Of a stretch of DNA of 36,112 nt, positions 24,566 through 34,475 are shown piece after piece. Source of the stretch: Trichocoleus desertorum ATA4-8-CV12 (GTDB taxonomy: Bacteria > Cyanobacteriota > Cyanobacteriia > FACHB-46); contig JAHHIL010000055.1 in assembly GCA_019358975.1 (NCBI GenBank), forward strand, positions 1 to 36,112, given 5' to 3'. The notes under the pieces are model-generated. The model saw only the letters and a program-made list of their open reading frames with translations. It had not been told where the DNA came from and did no database searches. Both the position numbers and the translations under genes were made by a program. Position 1 is the stretch's first letter, and the number at the start of each line of letters is the position of its first letter.

Positions 24566-25402
24566 TCAGACGGTCGGGATCGTGCCCCCGTCAATGACAT
24601 ATTCAGCGCCTGTGATGTAAGAGGCGCGATCGGACACCAGAAAAGCGACAAGCTCCGCGACCTCTTCGGGGCGACCTGGTCGTGCCATCGGGATTCCTCC
24701 AAGTGAGTCCATCAGTCCTTGACGTGCAGCATCAAGGTCAGCGCCGGACTCCTGAGCTAATCTCTTGATGAGTCTCTCAGCCGCCTTCGTTTCGATGAAG
24801 CCGGGCGCGACGGCATTGACACGCACCCCCTGAGGCGCAACTTCGTTTGACAGCCCTTTGCTGTAGGTTGCCAACGCCGCTTTTGCCGCCGCATACGCTA
24901 ATGTCGCGTCGTGAAGCGGGAGCCGACGCTGGATTGACGAGATATGGATGATGACACCTGACTTCTGTTCAAGCATCCGGGGCAGAAATGCCCGATCCAA
25001 ACGGACGGCGGCGAATAAATTGTCATTGAATGCTTGCTGCCAATCCCCATCTGTTAAGGCAAGCGCGCCGCCGCTTGGCGCAGAGGATCCGCCGACATTG
25101 TTAATCAGAATGTCTACACTGCCGAAACGAGCGAAGACTTCCTGCACAACTTTGTTCACCCCATCGGGCGTGCTAAGGTCAGTCCCTATGAACAGGTCGG
25201 GCGATTGAAGGTTTGTGGGAATTGAACGAGCAGTAGTCATGACCGTTGCACCGGCTTGCCTTAGTCGTATAGCAATAGCTTCACCGATGCCTTTTGTCCC
25301 GCCTGTTACCAAAACTCTTTTGTCGAGTAGTTCGGTGGAATCAGTTTGTATGTTTGTGTTTGTAGTTGTGTTCATGTTGCATGTGTTTGTAGTTGTGTTC
25401 AT
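24566..25402 (-). CDS. Short-chain dehydrogenase/reductase (SDR)
   Basis: I start at the Met at 25402; a second Met at 25375 lies in a 27-bp tandem duplicate and is equally possible. The longer frame to 25492 adds a hydrophobic leader that seems spurious. The core of about 260 residues has the NAD(P) loop [15 protein letters not shown], the motif NNVGGS, the catalytic Ser in IHISSIQRR, and YAAAKAA (Tyr and Lys), with the C-terminal [10 protein letters not shown]. All four catalytic elements are present. It is a classical SDR acting on an alcohol or ketone; the substrate is unknown. It is first in the block followed by the GMC oxidoreductase 50 bp on. Confidence 0.92.
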
Positions 25403-25406
25403 GTTG
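25355..25406 (-). repeat. 27-bp tandem duplication at the SDR start
   Basis: TGTGTTTGTAGTTGTGTTC and the following six bases occur at 25355-25379 and again at 25382-25406. In the gene sense this duplicates the start codon and the residues MNTTTNT. It gives two possible initiation codons nine residues apart. Confidence 0.85.
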
Positions 25407-26208: not shown

Positions 26209-26838
26209 TCACAACTTAGCAAGCCCTCGTTTCAATGCTGTAACCACCGCCTGAGTGCGATCGCTCACGCCCAACTTGCTCAAGATGCGATTGATGTGGA
26301 ATTTGACCGTACTTTCAGTAATATTCAAAGCCACACCAATATCATGATTGCTTAAACCATCGACCATGAGATGAATGACTTCCCGCTCGCGATCGCTCAA
26401 CTCTGGGTTGTTCATGCGTTGCACCAGCTTGGCAGCAACTTCGGAAGGGATATATTGTTGCCCGCTATGAACGATATGGATGGTATTGAGGAGCGCTTCG
26501 GGTTCAGCATCCTTGAGCAGATAGCCTTTAGCGCCAGCACGCAATCCACGATAAATGTCTTCGTCGCCATCATAAGTGGTTAGCACAATGATACGGGCAT
26601 GGGCAAATTCAGCGCAGATGGCGATGGTCGCATCTACACCGCTCATGTGGGGCATGCGTAAGTCCATTAAGGTAATATCGGGCTGTAGCTGTCGATATTG
26701 GTCGATCGCCTCCTGCCCGTTGCCCGCTTGTCCTACCACGGTCATATCTGGCTCATTCTCAATCAAGGCGGCGAGTCCCTGGCGGACGATCGCGTGATCA
26801 TCAACAATCAAAATGCGGACTGCTGCGGCCTGACTCAT
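26209..26838 (-). CDS. NarL/FixJ-family response regulator
   Basis: The protein has 209 residues. The receiver domain has the acidic pair in VDDHAIVRQG, the phosphoacceptor Asp in PDITLMDLRMPHMSG, Thr in VLTTYDGD and Lys in GYLLKDAEPEAL. The LuxR-type HTH (LSDREREVIHLMVDGLSNHD, ALNITESTVKFHINRILSKL) fills the last 65 residues. The start overlaps the stop of the histidine kinase gene by ATGA (26838-26835), so translation is coupled. It is the output of the sensor kinase encoded upstream. Confidence 0.95.
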   Translation of the reverse strand: MSQAAAVRILIVDDHAIVRQGLAALIENEPDMTVVGQAGNGQEAIDQYRQLQPDITLMDLRMPHMSGVDATIAICAEFAHARIIVLTTYDGDEDIYRGLRAGAKGYLLKDAEPEALLNTIHIVHSGQQYIPSEVAAKLVQRMNNPELSDREREVIHLMVDGLSNHDIGVALNITESTVKFHINRILSKLGVSDRTQAVVTALKRGLAKL

Positions 26839-29800
26839 ATCGCTGCCTCCTGATTCACCGTGACAAGCACTTCTGTTCCCTGCCCTAGTTGACTCTCGAT
26901 CGAGAGCTGTGCCCCAATATGCTCGGCTCGTTCAGTCATCCCCAGTAGGCCAAATCCCTGGCTGAGTGTGGTCGTGGTAACTTCAAATCCTTGTCCATTG
27001 TCTTTAACTCGTAAAAAGCATGAGGTTGGTTCATAAACCAACTCCACTCGAATTTCGCCCGCATGAGCGTACTTGATTGCATTCGTAAAGGCTTCCTGCC
27101 CAATTCTCAGGAGATGATTCTCAGTTTCGGGCGGTAGCACATAGGGTGTGCCAATAATGTCGTAAACCAGACGGGTTTCGGTTAAGGATGACATGGTGGA
27201 TATAAATCGCTCCAGTGCCGTCCACAGGTCGCCATCTTCTAGTAATTGGGGACGCAGTGCCGCAACCGATCGTCGAGCCTCTATTAGCCCACTACGAGCC
27301 AAATCTCGAACCGTATCAATATGCATCTGCACGGCATCTGGGTTGGTCGCGACTAAGCGAGAAACAGCTCCCATATGAACCAGAATCCCTGTGAATGCTT
27401 GCGCCAGCGTGTCATGAATTTCTCGTGCTATGCGGTTGCGTTCCTCTAAAATGGAGGCTGCTTCGGCATGTTTGCGTTCTCGCAGTGCAGCGTTTCGCTG
27501 TTCGCTAATGTCGAAAGATACACCCAACATTTGTACAGGCTGTCCAGCTTCGTTATAGATACCTCGACCTCTACTGACAAGCCAGTGAATACTATCATCT
27601 GGGTAAATTATTCGATGTTCACCTTCATAATCAGTATGAGTTGCCAGAGCGGTTGTAAGTGCTTGCTCAACCCGATCGACATCTTCTGGATGAACCCGAT
27701 CGCGCCACGCCTGATAGCTAGCCTTAACTTCACCGGGCGCTACCCCCAGCAATCGGGTATTGTTATCATCCCAATGCACTGTATTCTCTAAGATGTTCCA
27801 ATTCCAACTGCCGATGTAGGAGAAATCCATTGTCAGCCTACGTTGCTCTTCACTTTGGCGCAGGGCGTTTTCAACTTGCTGACGCTGTTCAATCTCTTGT
27901 GAGAGCAGCAATGTTCGCTCAGTAACTTGTTGTTCTAACGTTTGGTTGTAGTCGGCTAGCAGTTTCTCTGATTGCTTACGCTCGGTAATGTCTTGAAAGG
28001 CTATGATCGCATAGGCAACATTGCCTTGTTCATCAAAGATAGGAGTTCCCCACCCTTCAACAGGAATAATTGCGTTGTTTTGGTGAATATCTACATCGTC
28101 AATCCTGGTGCGTTCACCGCTCAACGCCCGGATGATTGGTAGTCTCTCAAATGGATAGATTTGATCCGTCCCCGTTACATAAAATTGATAAACCTCTGAA
28201 AGTTGCTCCGGGGTGGCGGCAGGATCAACGCCTTTACCCATCAGCTCAATGCCCTGCTGATTGACATAGTAAGGGCGACCCATGGCGTCAATAATGCCAA
28301 TGCCTACGGGAACCGCTTCGAGAAATTGAGCCATTTGACTTTCGCTAGCGCGGAGCTTTGAGTAGAGTTTGGCCTTTTCGATCGCGATCGCTGCCTGGGT
28401 GGAGAGTAGATTCAGAACTTGGGTTCGATCGGGTGTAAAAGCTCCAGCCGCCAATTGATTTTCTAGATACAACACGCCGACAAGCTTACCCTGATTCAGC
28501 AGCGGCAAACAGAGCAGCGATTGCGTTTGGTTCCTTTGAATGTAGGGATCATTGATAAAATTTCCCTCACGAGTTGCATCACTTAAAATCACAGACTCAT
28601 GAGTTCGGATTACATATTGAATAATTGATTCAGGTAAGCGATTCGTGATTGGAGTCGATTGCAGTACTCGGGTCGTGCAAACACTTTTACCTTCATCCAG
28701 TTCACAAGCAGCGTCAATTCTCCACTCGCCTGCGTTCTCTAAAAGCAAACATCCGGTTTGTGCCCCAGCGTTCTTGATCAGCATGTGCATTAACGAACTG
28801 AGCAACTGCTCCAGGTCAATCTCGCTTGAAATTGCCTGAGCTGCTTTCATCACTGTTGCTAAATCGAAAGCAACCTGCGAGGTATTAGAGGTGATTCCAG
28901 TTGTGGTGAGGATTAAAGGAGCGTTCACACCCGACGACTGAGCAAAGAACTGGGGATAGCGCGTTTCTAAATCCTTGACTTTTGCGGTTGCCCCCCAGCG
29001 TTCGTAGCAATAATGAGATTCTTTCATGTAGAGTTGAGCAATCTTTTCTCGATCTCGCCCTAGATAGAACTTGGCAGCCAATTCATAGGCTAACGCTTCT
29101 TCTTGGATGTATGCATTCTCTCTAGCCCCTTGAATCGCTTGTTCATAGAACTCTTCTGCCTCAAGCAACTGATCTAAGACTCGTGCTTTTTCTGCTTCAA
29201 CCAAATGATATTTATGCAAATAATTCATGGGTGCATAATGTGCCCATTGCCTCATTTTTTTCTGGCTAACTGCAACTTTCTTGAGAATTTCCTCCTGCAC
29301 TTGAGTACTGCTATCAAGATAGGTTGCGAGTCTTGCCAGAGAATCATAAAGATAGTACAAAGGCTGAAGGAAGGCACCTGTTAGCCGGATCAAATGAGTT
29401 TCTGCTAGGGTTGCATTTTTAACGGCTTGAGCATATTCAGAAAAGAAGTAGCATAGGCAAAGTTTGTTCAAATGTACAGTAAAGATAGTACTTCCATCAT
29501 TTGCTGCTTCATATTTTGGCAGTTCATTCTCCTCGTTGTAGAATTCGCCGATGAGTTGAATTGGGCTAGTTGAGCGTCCCATTAAGTTTACGACGACCTG
29601 CCGAAAGATTTGATTCCAAGTTAGTGCCGTTTCCTGTTTGATTTGATGGATTGCTTTGCCATAGATTGCCATATCGCGCTCAACCTCTGCGAGTTCTTTT
29701 CCATTGGCGTAGGATTGAAAACAGTGGGTATAGGCGCAGTAGGCGGCAGATTCTAAATCTCCAGTTTCTAGCCCAATGTGATAGCCTTCCAGTAATGGCT

Positions 29801-31910
29801 TCAATAATTCTCTAGCATGTTCTTTCCAATGGATGATAAAGTTATTGACGGTCAGCAATGTTCTAGCTCTAAGTGTGTTGGTACGAGGCTGTGACAACAG
29901 CCGTAGAGCAAGCTGTCCAAATTGGTAGCCAGCCTCAATGTTTCCGATCATTCCGCAAAGGATTAACCCAAAGGTGGCATAGGCAAAGGGAGATACAACA
30001 GCATTACCGTACTGAATTGATAAGCTTACTTGTTTAGTCACAAGCAGAGGCATTAAATTAGGAACCGCAACATAGGCGGCGATCGTAATGCTTGATAGGA
30101 TTCTCATCGCCGCTAGCTTGTCCGGTTCAGTCATCTCTGGCAAATGGATCAAGCTCTCAACCTCTTTCTCATGGAAGAGACCGGTGATTGTATCTAGTTC
30201 AAGGTGAATATCTGATTGACTAGGCGTTTTTGGGAGATTGATTTCCAGTTGATGCAAAACTTGCAATGCCGTATTGATTGCTTTTAGGGGTTGGCTCTGT
30301 GCAATATCAGTTTGAATTTTGACTTCGTACGTTTTCACACTATCAAGAATCGTTTTAGCTTCTTGTAGAACGATCGCTGCCCAGTATTCCACCTGTTCAA
30401 AATCGCCACACAGGTACACGACTTCTGTTGTCTCTTGATATAACTCTAAGGTCAGATCATAGTTTGTTTGCCAGCTAGAAGCAGTTAGCCATGCTCTTCC
30501 TGTAGTTAGATAGTTTTGCGCTGTACTGTAGGCGACCGCCCCTTTTGCTTTCTGCCCTGCCATCAAATTCAATTTAGCAATCTCATCTCGTTCGGGTCGA
30601 GATGTAACAAGCTCAGTTCCATGATTGAAATGATCGACAATTTCAAATAATCGATCTGATTGGCGCTCTAGCAATGTCTTTTCAAGCAGAGTACGACCAA
30701 TTTGAAGATGAACAATTTGCTTTTGTGACTCATCAATCAAGGCATAGGCAGCTTGCTGCACACAATCGTGCAAGAATTTATACTCTTGAACTAACAAGTT
30801 CTCATCTAACTCAGAAAGAGGCTGAATCAATTCCGCTTGAATCGCTGCCAGCAAATCTAGAGAAATCGCTTGAGGAGATTGCTTGCAAACGATCGCCAAC
30901 GTCTCTAAATCAAATTCTGCCCCGACACAAGCAGCTAAGCGGAGTATTTGCTGAGTCCCCTCTGGTAGTTTCTGCAACTTGAGCAGTAGCAACTCCACCA
31001 CATTATCAGTCATGTTCTGGGCTTGGATCTGTCCCATGTTCCATTGCCAGCTTAAGCGTGTCGCATCAAAGGTCAATAGATTTTCGCGATGCAGCATTCG
31101 CAAAAATTCGTTGACAAAAAAAGGATTTCCCTTCGTTTTACGCAACACCAATTCAGCTAAGGAATGCACAGCGTCAGTGGTTTGATGCAGCGTTTCAGCG
31201 ATCAACTGGCTTAATGGCTCTAGTGTTAAGGGTGCCAGATTGATTTCTTGAAGCACTGCTCCTTGTTTTCGAAATCGCTCCAACAGGACTGTCAATGGAT
31301 GGGATGAACTCACTTCATGATCGCGATAGGCTCCAATCAGAAACAGGGATTGGGTTTGCTCGTCAAGCATGATTAGCTCAATTAATCTGAGTGTGGCTGA
31401 ATCTGCCCACTGTAAGTCATCAAAAAAGACCACGAGTGGATGCTCTGTTGAGCAAAATACTCGGATGAACTGCTGGAAGATGCGATTGAAGCGATTTTGA
31501 GCTTCCGTGGCTCCCACCTCTGGAACGGGTGGCTGCTTGCCAATAATCAGTTCTACTTCAGGAACTACATCAATGATGAGCTGTCCGTTGTTGCCTAAGG
31601 CTGTGAGTAGACGCGATCGCCATTGCTGCAATTGTTCTTCTGGTTCACCCAGCAGTTGTTGTAACAATTTTTGTAGAGCCTGGGCGATCGCGCTGTAGGG
31701 AATATTGCGCTGAAACTGATCAAACTTACCAGAGATAAAATAGCCGCGCTTTGCCGTAATGGGTTTGTAGAGTTCCTGTACCAAGGCTGACTTCCCAACT
31801 CCAGCGTAGCCAGAGACGAGCATTAGTTGACTATGGGTGAATGGGTGGATGGGTGGATGGGTGGATGAGGAAATATTTTCTCCTGCCATCCCACTCTCCC
31901 ACTCTCCCAC
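26835..31910 (-). CDS. AAA ATPase/GAF/PAS sensor histidine kinase: second part of a split multidomain kinase
   Basis: The open frame has 1,691 codons from a GTG at 31910. After ~30 residues of repeat-encoded text comes the NTPase: Walker A GYAGVGKSALVQ, and Walker B VVFFDDLQWAD near residue 165. A long helical TPR-like region (~320-1010) follows. Then come a GAF domain (~1060-1210, LLCLPLLNQGKLVGVLYLEN) and two PAS/PAC units (~1220-1345, ending FQDITERK; ~1395-1510, with WNWNILENTVHWDD and ending FDISEQR). Last is a HisKA_3-type kinase core with the phospho-His in EERNRIAREIHDTLAQAF and ATPase boxes EAFTNAIKYAHAG, DNGQGFEV and FGLLGMTERAEHIGA. In intact relatives this is one polypeptide with the upstream Ser/Thr kinase. 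Here an insert of 92 bp separates them by a frameshift. The kinase should phosphorylate the NarL-type regulator. Confidence 0.92.
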   Translation of the reverse strand: MGEWESGMAGENISSSTHPPIHPFTHSQLMLVSGYAGVGKSALVQELYKPITAKRGYFISGKFDQFQRNIPYSAIAQALQKLLQQLLGEPEEQLQQWRSRLLTALGNNGQLIIDVVPEVELIIGKQPPVPEVGATEAQNRFNRIFQQFIRVFCSTEHPLVVFFDDLQWADSATLRLIELIMLDEQTQSLFLIGAYRDHEVSSSHPLTVLLERFRKQGAVLQEINLAPLTLEPLSQLIAETLHQTTDAVHSLAELVLRKTKGNPFFVNEFLRMLHRENLLTFDATRLSWQWNMGQIQAQNMTDNVVELLLLKLQKLPEGTQQILRLAACVGAEFDLETLAIVCKQSPQAISLDLLAAIQAELIQPLSELDENLLVQEYKFLHDCVQQAAYALIDESQKQIVHLQIGRTLLEKTLLERQSDRLFEIVDHFNHGTELVTSRPERDEIAKLNLMAGQKAKGAVAYSTAQNYLTTGRAWLTASSWQTNYDLTLELYQETTEVVYLCGDFEQVEYWAAIVLQEAKTILDSVKTYEVKIQTDIAQSQPLKAINTALQVLHQLEINLPKTPSQSDIHLELDTITGLFHEKEVESLIHLPEMTEPDKLAAMRILSSITIAAYVAVPNLMPLLVTKQVSLSIQYGNAVVSPFAYATFGLILCGMIGNIEAGYQFGQLALRLLSQPRTNTLRARTLLTVNNFIIHWKEHARELLKPLLEGYHIGLETGDLESAAYCAYTHCFQSYANGKELAEVERDMAIYGKAIHQIKQETALTWNQIFRQVVVNLMGRSTSPIQLIGEFYNEENELPKYEAANDGSTIFTVHLNKLCLCYFFSEYAQAVKNATLAETHLIRLTGAFLQPLYYLYDSLARLATYLDSSTQVQEEILKKVAVSQKKMRQWAHYAPMNYLHKYHLVEAEKARVLDQLLEAEEFYEQAIQGARENAYIQEEALAYELAAKFYLGRDREKIAQLYMKESHYCYERWGATAKVKDLETRYPQFFAQSSGVNAPLILTTTGITSNTSQVAFDLATVMKAAQAISSEIDLEQLLSSLMHMLIKNAGAQTGCLLLENAGEWRIDAACELDEGKSVCTTRVLQSTPITNRLPESIIQYVIRTHESVILSDATREGNFINDPYIQRNQTQSLLCLPLLNQGKLVGVLYLENQLAAGAFTPDRTQVLNLLSTQAAIAIEKAKLYSKLRASESQMAQFLEAVPVGIGIIDAMGRPYYVNQQGIELMGKGVDPAATPEQLSEVYQFYVTGTDQIYPFERLPIIRALSGERTRIDDVDIHQNNAIIPVEGWGTPIFDEQGNVAYAIIAFQDITERKQSEKLLADYNQTLEQQVTERTLLLSQEIEQRQQVENALRQSEEQRRLTMDFSYIGSWNWNILENTVHWDDNNTRLLGVAPGEVKASYQAWRDRVHPEDVDRVEQALTTALATHTDYEGEHRIIYPDDSIHWLVSRGRGIYNEAGQPVQMLGVSFDISEQRNAALRERKHAEAASILEERNRIAREIHDTLAQAFTGILVHMGAVSRLVATNPDAVQMHIDTVRDLARSGLIEARRSVAALRPQLLEDGDLWTALERFISTMSSLTETRLVYDIIGTPYVLPPETENHLLRIGQEAFTNAIKYAHAGEIRVELVYEPTSCFLRVKDNGQGFEVTTTTLSQGFGLLGMTERAEHIGAQLSIESQLGQGTEVLVTVNQEAAI

Positions 31911-32881
31911 TCTCCCACTCCCGCTACTCTCTCAAATGCTGCCCACAAGGTTGCAATCTCTGCTTTCCGTCCATACAGTTTTTGGGGAATGTGAAACCGA
32001 TCGGAAATATCGTGCAGCGCGAGTGGGATGGTGTCGATTTGCCCGGTTGTTTTGAATTGTGCTGCCAAGTTTGCTAAATCTGCTTTGATGCCCCAGGCAC
32101 TTTGGTAGCGATCTTCGACATTCTTCGCCATCAGTTTCATGACAATGTCTGAAACGGACTTGGGAATGGTTGCATTCAGTTCGTGTGGTGGAACAGGTTG
32201 TTTAGCAATATGACAGTGAACTAATTCCAGGATATCGGTTGTTGCAAACGGCAACTGTCCAGTCAGTAATTGGTAGAACGTTATCCCGAGTGAATAGAAA
32301 TCGGTGCGGTAATCGAGCAACCGATTCATCCGCCCAGTTTGTTCTGGAGACAGGTAAGCAAGCGTGCCCTCTAAAACATGTGGGCTTTTGAATGGGGGAT
32401 TGGTGCGGTTAAATCGGGTGGCAATCCCAAAGTCAATGATTTTAACAACGCCAGTCTCTAAATTGAGAACGATGTTTCCAGGATTAATATCTTTGTGAAT
32501 GATATTGGCGGCATGGATTTTGTTCAGAATGTTGGTAAGAGCGATCGCCAGCCGCAGAAATGTGGCTAAGGGCATGGGGCAGAAATCTGGGCGCTGGCGC
32601 ATCCATCGTTCCAAGGACTCTCCACCAAAGTCTTCTAAGAGAATAAAAAGCGTGCGTTGATAGTCTTGCTGACTATATGCCTCGATCACGCCTTCCAGCT
32701 TGAGGGAGCGGGTGATTTCATATTCCTGTCGGTAGCGCGTTAGTTCTTGGGCAGAAGGGTAATCTTGCTTGAGCAGTTTGACCACGATCGCCACCCCATC
32801 GTCTCGAATGCCCCGATACACTAAAGAATTAGAGCTTTCGTAAATTTTGCTTTGGATAGCAATCCCTGGTAAAGCAACCAT
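31823..32881 (-). CDS. Ser/Thr protein kinase domain: first part of a split multidomain kinase
   Basis: The 352-residue frame begins MVALPGIAIQSKIYESSNSL. It has the kinase lysine (VAIVVKLLK), the catalytic loop IIHKDINPGNIVLN, the DFG in KIIDFGIATRF, and the APE-like SPEQTGRMN. The kinase domain is complete (~residues 10-270). A linker to ATLWAAFERVAG at ~residue 320 would normally run on into the AAA domain. It instead enters a repeat-encoded tail (GEWESGRVGW, PHPPIHPSTHS) and stops at 31825-31823. The continuing protein is in another frame downstream. Cyanobacterial and fungal-like relatives are single proteins of about 1,800-2,000 residues. The Hanks-type kinase may regulate the sensor half if the parts still meet. 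Confidence 0.9.
   Translation of the reverse strand: MVALPGIAIQSKIYESSNSLVYRGIRDDGVAIVVKLLKQDYPSAQELTRYRQEYEITRSLKLEGVIEAYSQQDYQRTLFILLEDFGGESLERWMRQRPDFCPMPLATFLRLAIALTNILNKIHAANIIHKDINPGNIVLNLETGVVKIIDFGIATRFNRTNPPFKSPHVLEGTLAYLSPEQTGRMNRLLDYRTDFYSLGITFYQLLTGQLPFATTDILELVHCHIAKQPVPPHELNATIPKSVSDIVMKLMAKNVEDRYQSAWGIKADLANLAAQFKTTGQIDTIPLALHDISDRFHIPQKLYGRKAEIATLWAAFERVAGVGEWESGRVGWQEKIFPHPPIHPSTHSPIVN
31830..31921 (-). repeat. 92-bp low-complexity insert of 8-bp tandem repeats splitting the kinase gene
   Basis: Between codons for RVA and LMLVSGYAG the minus strand carries GGGAGAGT repeated about three and a half times, a unique core of about 24 bp, then ATCCACCC three times plus one variant ATTCACCC. 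The insert is exactly 92 bp, 2 more than a multiple of three, so it breaks the frame. The encoded text (GEWESGRVGEW, HPPIHPSTHS) is of a kind found in repeat insertions of other cyanobacterial genes. Losing one 8-bp unit (84 bp) or gaining two (108 bp) would restore a single reading frame. Confidence 0.9.
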
Positions 32882-33163: not shown

Positions 33164-33786
33164 TCATTGCTTTAATCCTTTGCCCTCATACGTCCACTTG
33201 AATGGTTTAGCCATTGTGCGATTAAAGTAATCGATAAATTTCAGAATCTGGTTTTTGAGCTGCCCTTTACTCGCAGAGTCTGCTCGTTTGAGCAACTTAC
33301 GCACCAAAATGCTGAACCACATCTCAATCTGATTAAGCCAAGAACAATGCTTGGGGGTGAAGTGGAACACGATTTTGTGGCTCTGGTCGCGCAAAACTCT
33401 GAGCGAGTTTGCATCGATTTGACAATGCCCGATTCCCCTTTGACGCCCAATTCAATCTCAAGTCCTTCTGTTTGGGCGACAAATCGCACTAATGATGCAG
33501 ATTGGTGAATGTTCAAGCAATCCATCACCAGATGCCATTTAACTGCATTCGGGTCAGTAGCAATCAACTGTTGAATATGGTTAAGGTAATCCGTCTCAGT
33601 CCGCCGCTCACCCACCGTTGCTTCCACGACCCGACCTTGGGCGACATCAAAACTGGCAATCAATGTTTGTGTTCCGTGGCGAATATACTCAAATTCTCGT
33701 CGTTCTCGTTTTCCAGGTCGCATCGATTGGGTGGCAGCTTTCCGTTCTAAAGCTTGGATTCCAGTCATCTCATCAGCAATTCTCAT
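33164..33786 (-). pseudogene. IS630-type transposase, DDE part, frameshifted
   Basis: The frame from ADEMTGIQALERKA through RREFEYIRHGTQTLIASFDV and LVMDCLNIHQSASLVRFVAQ is the DDE_3 catalytic domain of an IS630-type transposase (Asp of ADE, Asp of MDCLN). At about 33395 a frameshift separates it from the end, QSHKIVFHFTPKHCSWLNQI, EMWFSILVRKLLKRAD, whose Glu after NQI is the third catalytic acid. The N-terminal HTH half is absent upstream of 33786. The element is dead in two ways: truncated and frameshifted. Confidence 0.85.
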
Positions 33787-34001
33787 TTTGAAGCATTTGT
33801 ACTATAAAAGAGGCCTTGAACGCGATTTCTGCCAAAATTCTTAAACGATAGAATCAGTGTTTCAGCGTGTCAGTTTTTCAAAGTAGGACATCTGTATTGC
33901 AAGAAATTTCATAATGAGAATTGCTGTCATCTCATACCAATTTAAATTAGACAGAAGGCAGATAAGCTAGGCTGAGAGGAGTTGTTTCGTCCGCTCTGCT
34001 A

Positions 34002-34475
34002 ATGGCTGGTGTCACCTCAATTGACGTGAAGGAAAATGTGGATGACCTCGTAGAACAGTTGCGCCAAGCAGCTACGCCAACCGCCAAAGAACGCTTGCAA
34101 GTGCTCTACTGGCTCAAGCAAGAGCAGGCACCGAGTATCGGCACGATCGCTCAAGCGGTGGGGAAACATCGCAACACGCTGCAAACCTGGCTATCGATGT
34201 ACCGAGACGGCGGGCTTGAAGCGATGCTAGAAGTGAAGAAATCACCTGGAAGAGTGCGGGTGATTCCGCAATGGGCGGAAGAGGCCCTAGCCAAGCGCCT
34301 ACAAGAACCTAATCATGGATTCCAGAGCTACGGAGCGGTGCAGCGGTGGTTGGCTCAGACACTGGGGGTAGAGGCTCAGTATCACGTGGTGTATCAGATG
34401 ACCCGCTATCGACTCCAAGTATCAAATGTCAATTACGTAGGGCTCTTCCCAGCTTTTGGTGATCGAGGTTCTTGA
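34002..34475 (+). pseudogene. IS630-type transposase, HTH N-terminal part, truncated
   Basis: Residues 1-139 form the DNA-binding half of an IS630 transposase: two HTH units (APSIGTIAQAVGKHRNTLQT, NHGFQSYGAVQRWLAQTLGV). After TRYRLQ (about 34418) the transposase sequence stops and an unrelated tail (VSNVNYVGLFPAFG) is read from an inverted-repeat element. This type normally has a separate or frameshifted DDE part, which is missing. It is probably not the missing half of the IS630 fragment at 33164-33786, since the two belong to different subgroups as far as I can judge. Confidence 0.8.

Follow-up and report, generated by a model that had tools for sequence, protein, structure and literature searches.

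The window considered here, meaning the whole 36,112-nucleotide stretch of DNA that was analyzed, is contig C55 of a cyanobacterial draft genome of 6.06 Mb in 90 contigs. We found in it two consecutive genes that together display the domains of the HstK/cbSTKIII dual kinases and that occupy different frames in the window as assembled (Table 1). ORF A contributes the N-terminal Ser/Thr kinase domain (PF00069, 3.4e-35 in Pfam) and runs on into the invariant LYGRxxE motif, with which the AAA_16 domain starts, before it closes with the repeat-coded tail GVGEWESGRVGWQEKIFPHPPIHPSTHSPIVN and a TAA stop. ORF B contributes the remaining domains, with GAF represented at least once and a histidine kinase at the C-terminus (its Pfam matches include PF01590, PF07730 and PF02518). 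The genome codes for five other members of the family, all of them intact, which brings the paralogs to six; because these five and 98 homologous linkers belong to unsplit, single polypeptides, whereas the window domains are distributed over two frames, the window gene is a split descendant of the HstK/cbSTKIII family. The 6 kb of coding sequence in ORFs A and B hold no further stop or frameshift, and pairwise comparison of each half with the homologs in genomes G009 and G017 gives dN/dS values of 0.12–0.16, which show constraint in the past and not since the split, as pairwise values cannot date the break.

Table 1. Positions of the genes, repeat arms and putative coupling site of the split kinase in the window
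Feature	Positions	Strand	Basis
ORF A: Ser/Thr kinase half, 352 aa	31823..32881	-	ORF calls and Pfam
ORF B: AAA_16/STAND, GAF, PAS, PAS, HisKA_3, HATPase; 1691 aa counted from GTG 31910	26835..31910	-	ORF calls and Pfam
NarL/LuxR-type response regulator; its gene shares 4 bases with the end of ORF B	26209..26838	-	Identity read from the ORF sequence
G-rich hairpin arm: on the coding strand, the octamer GGGAGAGT repeated perfectly four times	31889..31920	-	TRF
C-rich hairpin arm: on the coding strand, the octamer ATCCACCC in 4.4 copies, predicted to pair with the G-rich arm	31833..31867	-	TRF and fold
Hairpin tip: AT-rich imperfect palindrome GAGGAAATATTTTCTCC	31867..31883	none	Gap-free alignment with the loop of the G017 homolog
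TAATG: stop TAA of ORF A (31825-31823), whose last A is shared with a frame-B ATG; candidate termination-reinitiation site	31821..31825	-	Sequence

Several further features surround the two genes. Judging from gene order, the response regulator encoded immediately after ORF B is the likely partner of the histidine kinase. Upstream of ORF A lie two opposite-strand transposase fragments (33241–34475), apparently of the IS630 type (named by ORF reading and not by profile search), which have partial copies at other genomic sites. Positions 25355–25406, close to the beginning of an ORF for a short-chain dehydrogenase, are taken up by 1.9 copies of a perfect direct repeat of 27 bp, or nine codons. 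Comparison with the G009 homolog (L205) yields a dS of 0.46 for the kinase half and of 1.23 for the initial 776 aa of ORF B, a contrast that suggests recombination or domain shuffling.

The two halves part in the linker that leads from the LYGR motif to the P-loop. This distance is 167 nt in the window, which leaves a remainder of two on division by three; all 98 other linkers (a few of which are the same gene present in two collections) are in frame, with lengths of 84–237 nt that are always multiples of three, and the linker is likewise in frame at nine further plasmid loci. The original prediction that the two halves are one protein in relatives is thereby borne out. It had also placed 92 bp between them, a figure that holds for the span of the repeats and not for the length of an insert, the excess over the shortest homologous linkers (84–93 nt) being ~74–83 bp. 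Linkers of relatives carry varied, unrelated inserts, and sites with and without an insert both occur; among the 52 linkers of at least 120 nt, the window included, 14 fold with a z below -2. In two same-species plasmid pairs, one from L. boryana and one from T. variabilis, the linkers are identical within the pair and contain no octamer array, and a search for an empty site found, among the homologs, no two near-identical sequences of which one has the element and the other lacks it. In the predicted structure of an in-frame homolog with an insert, the helix bearing the YGR motif (residues 50–64) and a strand (residues 101–107) are modeled with confidence, and nearly all of residues 68–95 have a pLDDT below 50. 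The octamer site is accordingly modeled as a disordered surface loop between two elements of the AAA_16/STAND domain, the LYGRxxE helix and the Walker A strand. Because the AAA_16 profile is matched over positions 1–167 in an intact insert-free homolog and only from position 25 in ORF B, the break is predicted to fall within this NTPase domain and to leave the invariant YGR motif on the kinase half. In HstK-type kinases the loop preceding Walker A would be a hot spot for the gain and loss of repeat-rich inserts that leave the frame intact.

At the frame change itself stand tandem arrays with an 8-bp unit, just as originally described from the letters and now recovered by TRF and the ORF calls. 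On the + strand, TRF reads the C-rich arm as 4.4 copies of ATGGGTGG (96%) and the G-rich arm as 4.0 copies of TCCCACTC (100%). The coding strand is predicted to form a single long hairpin with imperfect pairing of G-rich octamers against C-rich ones, closed at its tip by the palindrome (-51.1 kcal/mol versus a mean of -34.7 for shuffled sequences; z = -4.35; 0 of 200 shuffles equally stable). On this fold the two octamer arrays form opposite arms of a single structure and are not independent, and it is for this reason that they have the opposite base skew that had been attributed to separate arrays. The G-rich arm holds a G-quadruplex-type motif, and each arm, read on the strand that is its own, displays a GGG motif of four tracts. 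Neither array has a copy elsewhere in the window genome at up to one mismatch, and an origin from a dispersed repeat inside that genome was rejected on the grounds that each unit array is confined to a single site. The exact two-arm element is rare (only two genomes of the class besides the window genome have the pattern, among 388), and single octamer arrays are commoner.

Octamer arrays are present in many copies in four genomes (G332, G104, G019 and G005), and elements of this kind are found in frame in the RND pump and RadA genes of G104 (RadA being identified from its sequence and from KaiC/zinc-ribbon matches), in an ABC exporter gene of G332, which has two of them, and in the GcvP gene of G019, as well as in genes for a poly(A) polymerase, an alpha-mannosidase, a Ni-insertion protein, a P-type ATPase and QueG in other cyanobacteria. 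The octamers of the RND pump, RadA and ABC exporter genes fold as two-armed hairpins. Those of the ABC exporter (G332:C2; L127, 1466–1720, and L121, 1405–1640) are long octamer hairpins of ~190–240 bp with z of -3.7 and -7.2. Five other octamer sites are without a long frame across the array, and most of these look intergenic on ORF inspection. Because like octamer hairpins sit in frame inside unrelated genes, these sequences suggest that the element class is carried in coding loops more as a tolerated passenger than as a dedicated switch. Two-armed octamer hairpins in coding genes, RadA and transporters among them, constitute a class that deserves a survey of its own.

The most informative relative is the homolog in G017, whose in-frame linker of 183 nt shares with the window the element, its tip and the sequence that follows; a like insert thus exists at the same site in one homolog, while many other linkers carry different ones. 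A MAFFT alignment of the two places a single 16-bp gap, in the G-rich arm, over the whole element, so that the window has exactly two octamer units fewer than G017, a difference seen in a single comparison with a diverged linker from another survey family. The G017 units are degenerate with the period of 8 kept, whereas those of the window are nearly perfect. Since the two genes differ by exactly two octamers, a change in unit number is the most likely cause of the split. The repeat is an intragenic one whose unit shifts the frame, and the frame arithmetic of the original prediction is right: every gain or loss of an 8-bp unit changes the frame, and the loss of one octamer or the gain of two would restore it.

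We favor, with a probability of about 0.52, the reading that the hairpin sits in a hypervariable loop and that a repeat indel split one of six paralogs in a way that is reversible in principle. The octamer hairpin would occupy a disordered, hypervariable loop of the HstK-type (cbSTKIII) dual kinase, and slippage or unequal exchange (we infer both the cause and the direction) probably lowered the number of octamers in the window lineage. The gene would then read as two cistrons, a Ser/Thr kinase that ends in TAA and an NTPase-GAF-PAS-histidine kinase, from which translational coupling may produce two separate proteins instead of one, presumably with altered signaling as a consequence. Reversion could come about by the loss of one octamer or the gain of two. 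The window would thus present one case of a two-octamer difference that splits a protein.

How the split allele is expressed can be gauged from its start and stop signals. The TAATG directly precedes the Walker A strand MLVSGYAGVGKS, and a frame-B ATG at 31889 has a GGAG six bases upstream (GGAG-N6-ATG). Neither the stop-start overlap nor the position of the break inside AAA_16 figured in the original prediction. On account of these two features, two translationally coupled proteins are a plausible product, and either ATG 31889 or ATG 31823 is a likelier start for ORF B than GTG 31910. No Shine-Dalgarno sequence precedes the TAATG, which could be a coincidence, CTA ATG being coding in G017 too, there in the other frame.

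The original prediction had gone further and seen in the repeats a selected phase-variable (contingency) switch, by which octamer slippage toggles within a population between the fused dual kinase and two proteins. What stands of it is that the octamers very probably moved the frame, and beyond the unit arithmetic and the two-unit difference from in-frame G017, a switch is also consistent with the intactness of all catalytic domains, with the expression layout that the split form retains in its TAATG, with the homogeneity of the window units against the degenerate ones of G017, which suggests recent array turnover, and with a second homolog (G008:C12) whose frame is broken in the same linker beside a G8 run. 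Selection for switching nevertheless fits less well with arrays of only 4 and 4.4 units that recur nowhere else in the genome, with like elements that, where intragenic, are in frame in housekeeping genes elsewhere, with 98 of 98 other linkers in frame and with a product that is a cytoplasmic-type regulator backed by five intact paralogs; related heptamer repeats adjoin genes of all classes, and phase variation was judged unlikely for them (PMC4692102). We regard such a switch as unlikely, although it survives best among the alternatives. More doubtful still is a full cyanobacterial contingency locus, in which slippage of coding-hairpin octamers would toggle between the fused dual kinase and a coupled pair of kinase and histidine kinase; if true, it would amount to heritable rewiring of a signaling protein and not to on/off switching of a surface antigen.

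Besides the window, at least two homologs among the matches listed are frame-broken. One (G008:C12, L200) is an HstK-type gene broken in the same linker beside the G8 run, at about base 1145 of the reverse complement, which could be due to slippage or to a homopolymer sequencing error. The other (G009:C38, L205) is the nearest DNA relative and lies in two frames, with the change between 2567 and 2591 at an A7 run ~60 nt upstream of the linker, and this could be a sequencing error. Apart from G008:C12, the short open frames inspected among the homologs proved to be contig ends and were rejected as splits. Contigs G083:C69 (L202), G085:C173 (L199) and G061:C4 (L198) end in or just past the linker, the first of them within a G-rich and then C-rich stretch.

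An error of assembly or sequencing in the array count, with a true gene that is in frame and fused, comes second among the alternatives, and we consider it improbable. The count depends on a single assembly, a draft of 90 contigs, the three truncated contigs indicate that the site is sometimes hard to assemble, and the other 98 linkers are all in frame; however, arrays of 32–35 bp in an element of ~90 bp fit within one read, and the remaining repeat-bearing homologs were assembled in frame. It is also rather doubtful that the split is a loss-of-function mutation in a decaying paralog, neither half of which matters any longer. The coding sequence free of other lesions, the match of every catalytic family and the low dN/dS, undatable as it is with respect to the break, argue against decay, even though five intact paralogs are at hand, IS630-type remnants lie 0.4 kb upstream, the break cuts the NTPase domain and strands its YGR motif on the kinase, and the nearest DNA relative is broken as well. 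Recoding, in which an mRNA hairpin or G-quadruplex drives -1 ribosomal frameshifting to make some fused kinase, is very improbable because the element is common to in-frame genes, where a frameshift would be useless, even though joining A to B needs exactly a -1 shift, both frames are open over ~105 nt, the predicted hairpin is strong, the coding strand has four or five GGG tracts and RNA quadruplexes have been connected with -1 frameshifting in work cited in PMC4692102. A programmed -1 site was rejected as a candidate, the canonical slippery heptamer X XXY YYZ being absent from the overlap of ORFs A and B.

The indel reading that we favor can be set against several known systems. The palindromic elements of Rickettsia are, in outline, palindromic DNA that lies in frame at tolerant positions inside unrelated protein genes. 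The octamer element resembles them in this layout; its arms, however, are built of tandem octamers, and the copy in the window lies out of frame. Contingency loci carry an intragenic repeat with a unit that is not a multiple of three, such that a change of units alters the frame (described also in the introduction of PMC4692102); unlike them, the window gene has few units, is not a surface gene and is broken in its middle. The G-rich heptameric tandem repeats of Nostoc, GGGGA(C/T)T, and of Xanthomonas, GGGAATC, which are spread over their genomes, resemble the window arrays in being short and G-rich, in their preference for four units, in their quadruplex potential and in sometimes occurring as convergent pairs capable of forming a stem-loop, frequently so in Xanthomonas (PMC4692102). 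The window repeats differ in having a period of 8 and not 7 in both arms, in pairing arms of different units as one predicted hairpin, and in lying inside coding sequence, each at one site of the genome instead of in many dispersed copies. The STRR-type tandem heptanucleotides of Calothrix PCC 7601, which PMC4692102 cites as short tandem repeats of obscure role, are likewise set apart from an element that is octameric, two-armed and intragenic. The gene itself finds its closest counterpart in HstK (Alr2258 of Anabaena PCC 7120) and the other HstK/cbSTKIII dual Ser/Thr-His kinases of filamentous cyanobacteria, with which it shares the N-terminal kinase, the GAF and PAS domains, the C-terminal histidine kinase and the presence of several paralogs per genome (PMC2176072). 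The five other copies in the window genome are single proteins like these, whereas the window copy is split into two frames within AAA_16, and the fused and split forms together offer a natural test of why the kinase domains are joined.
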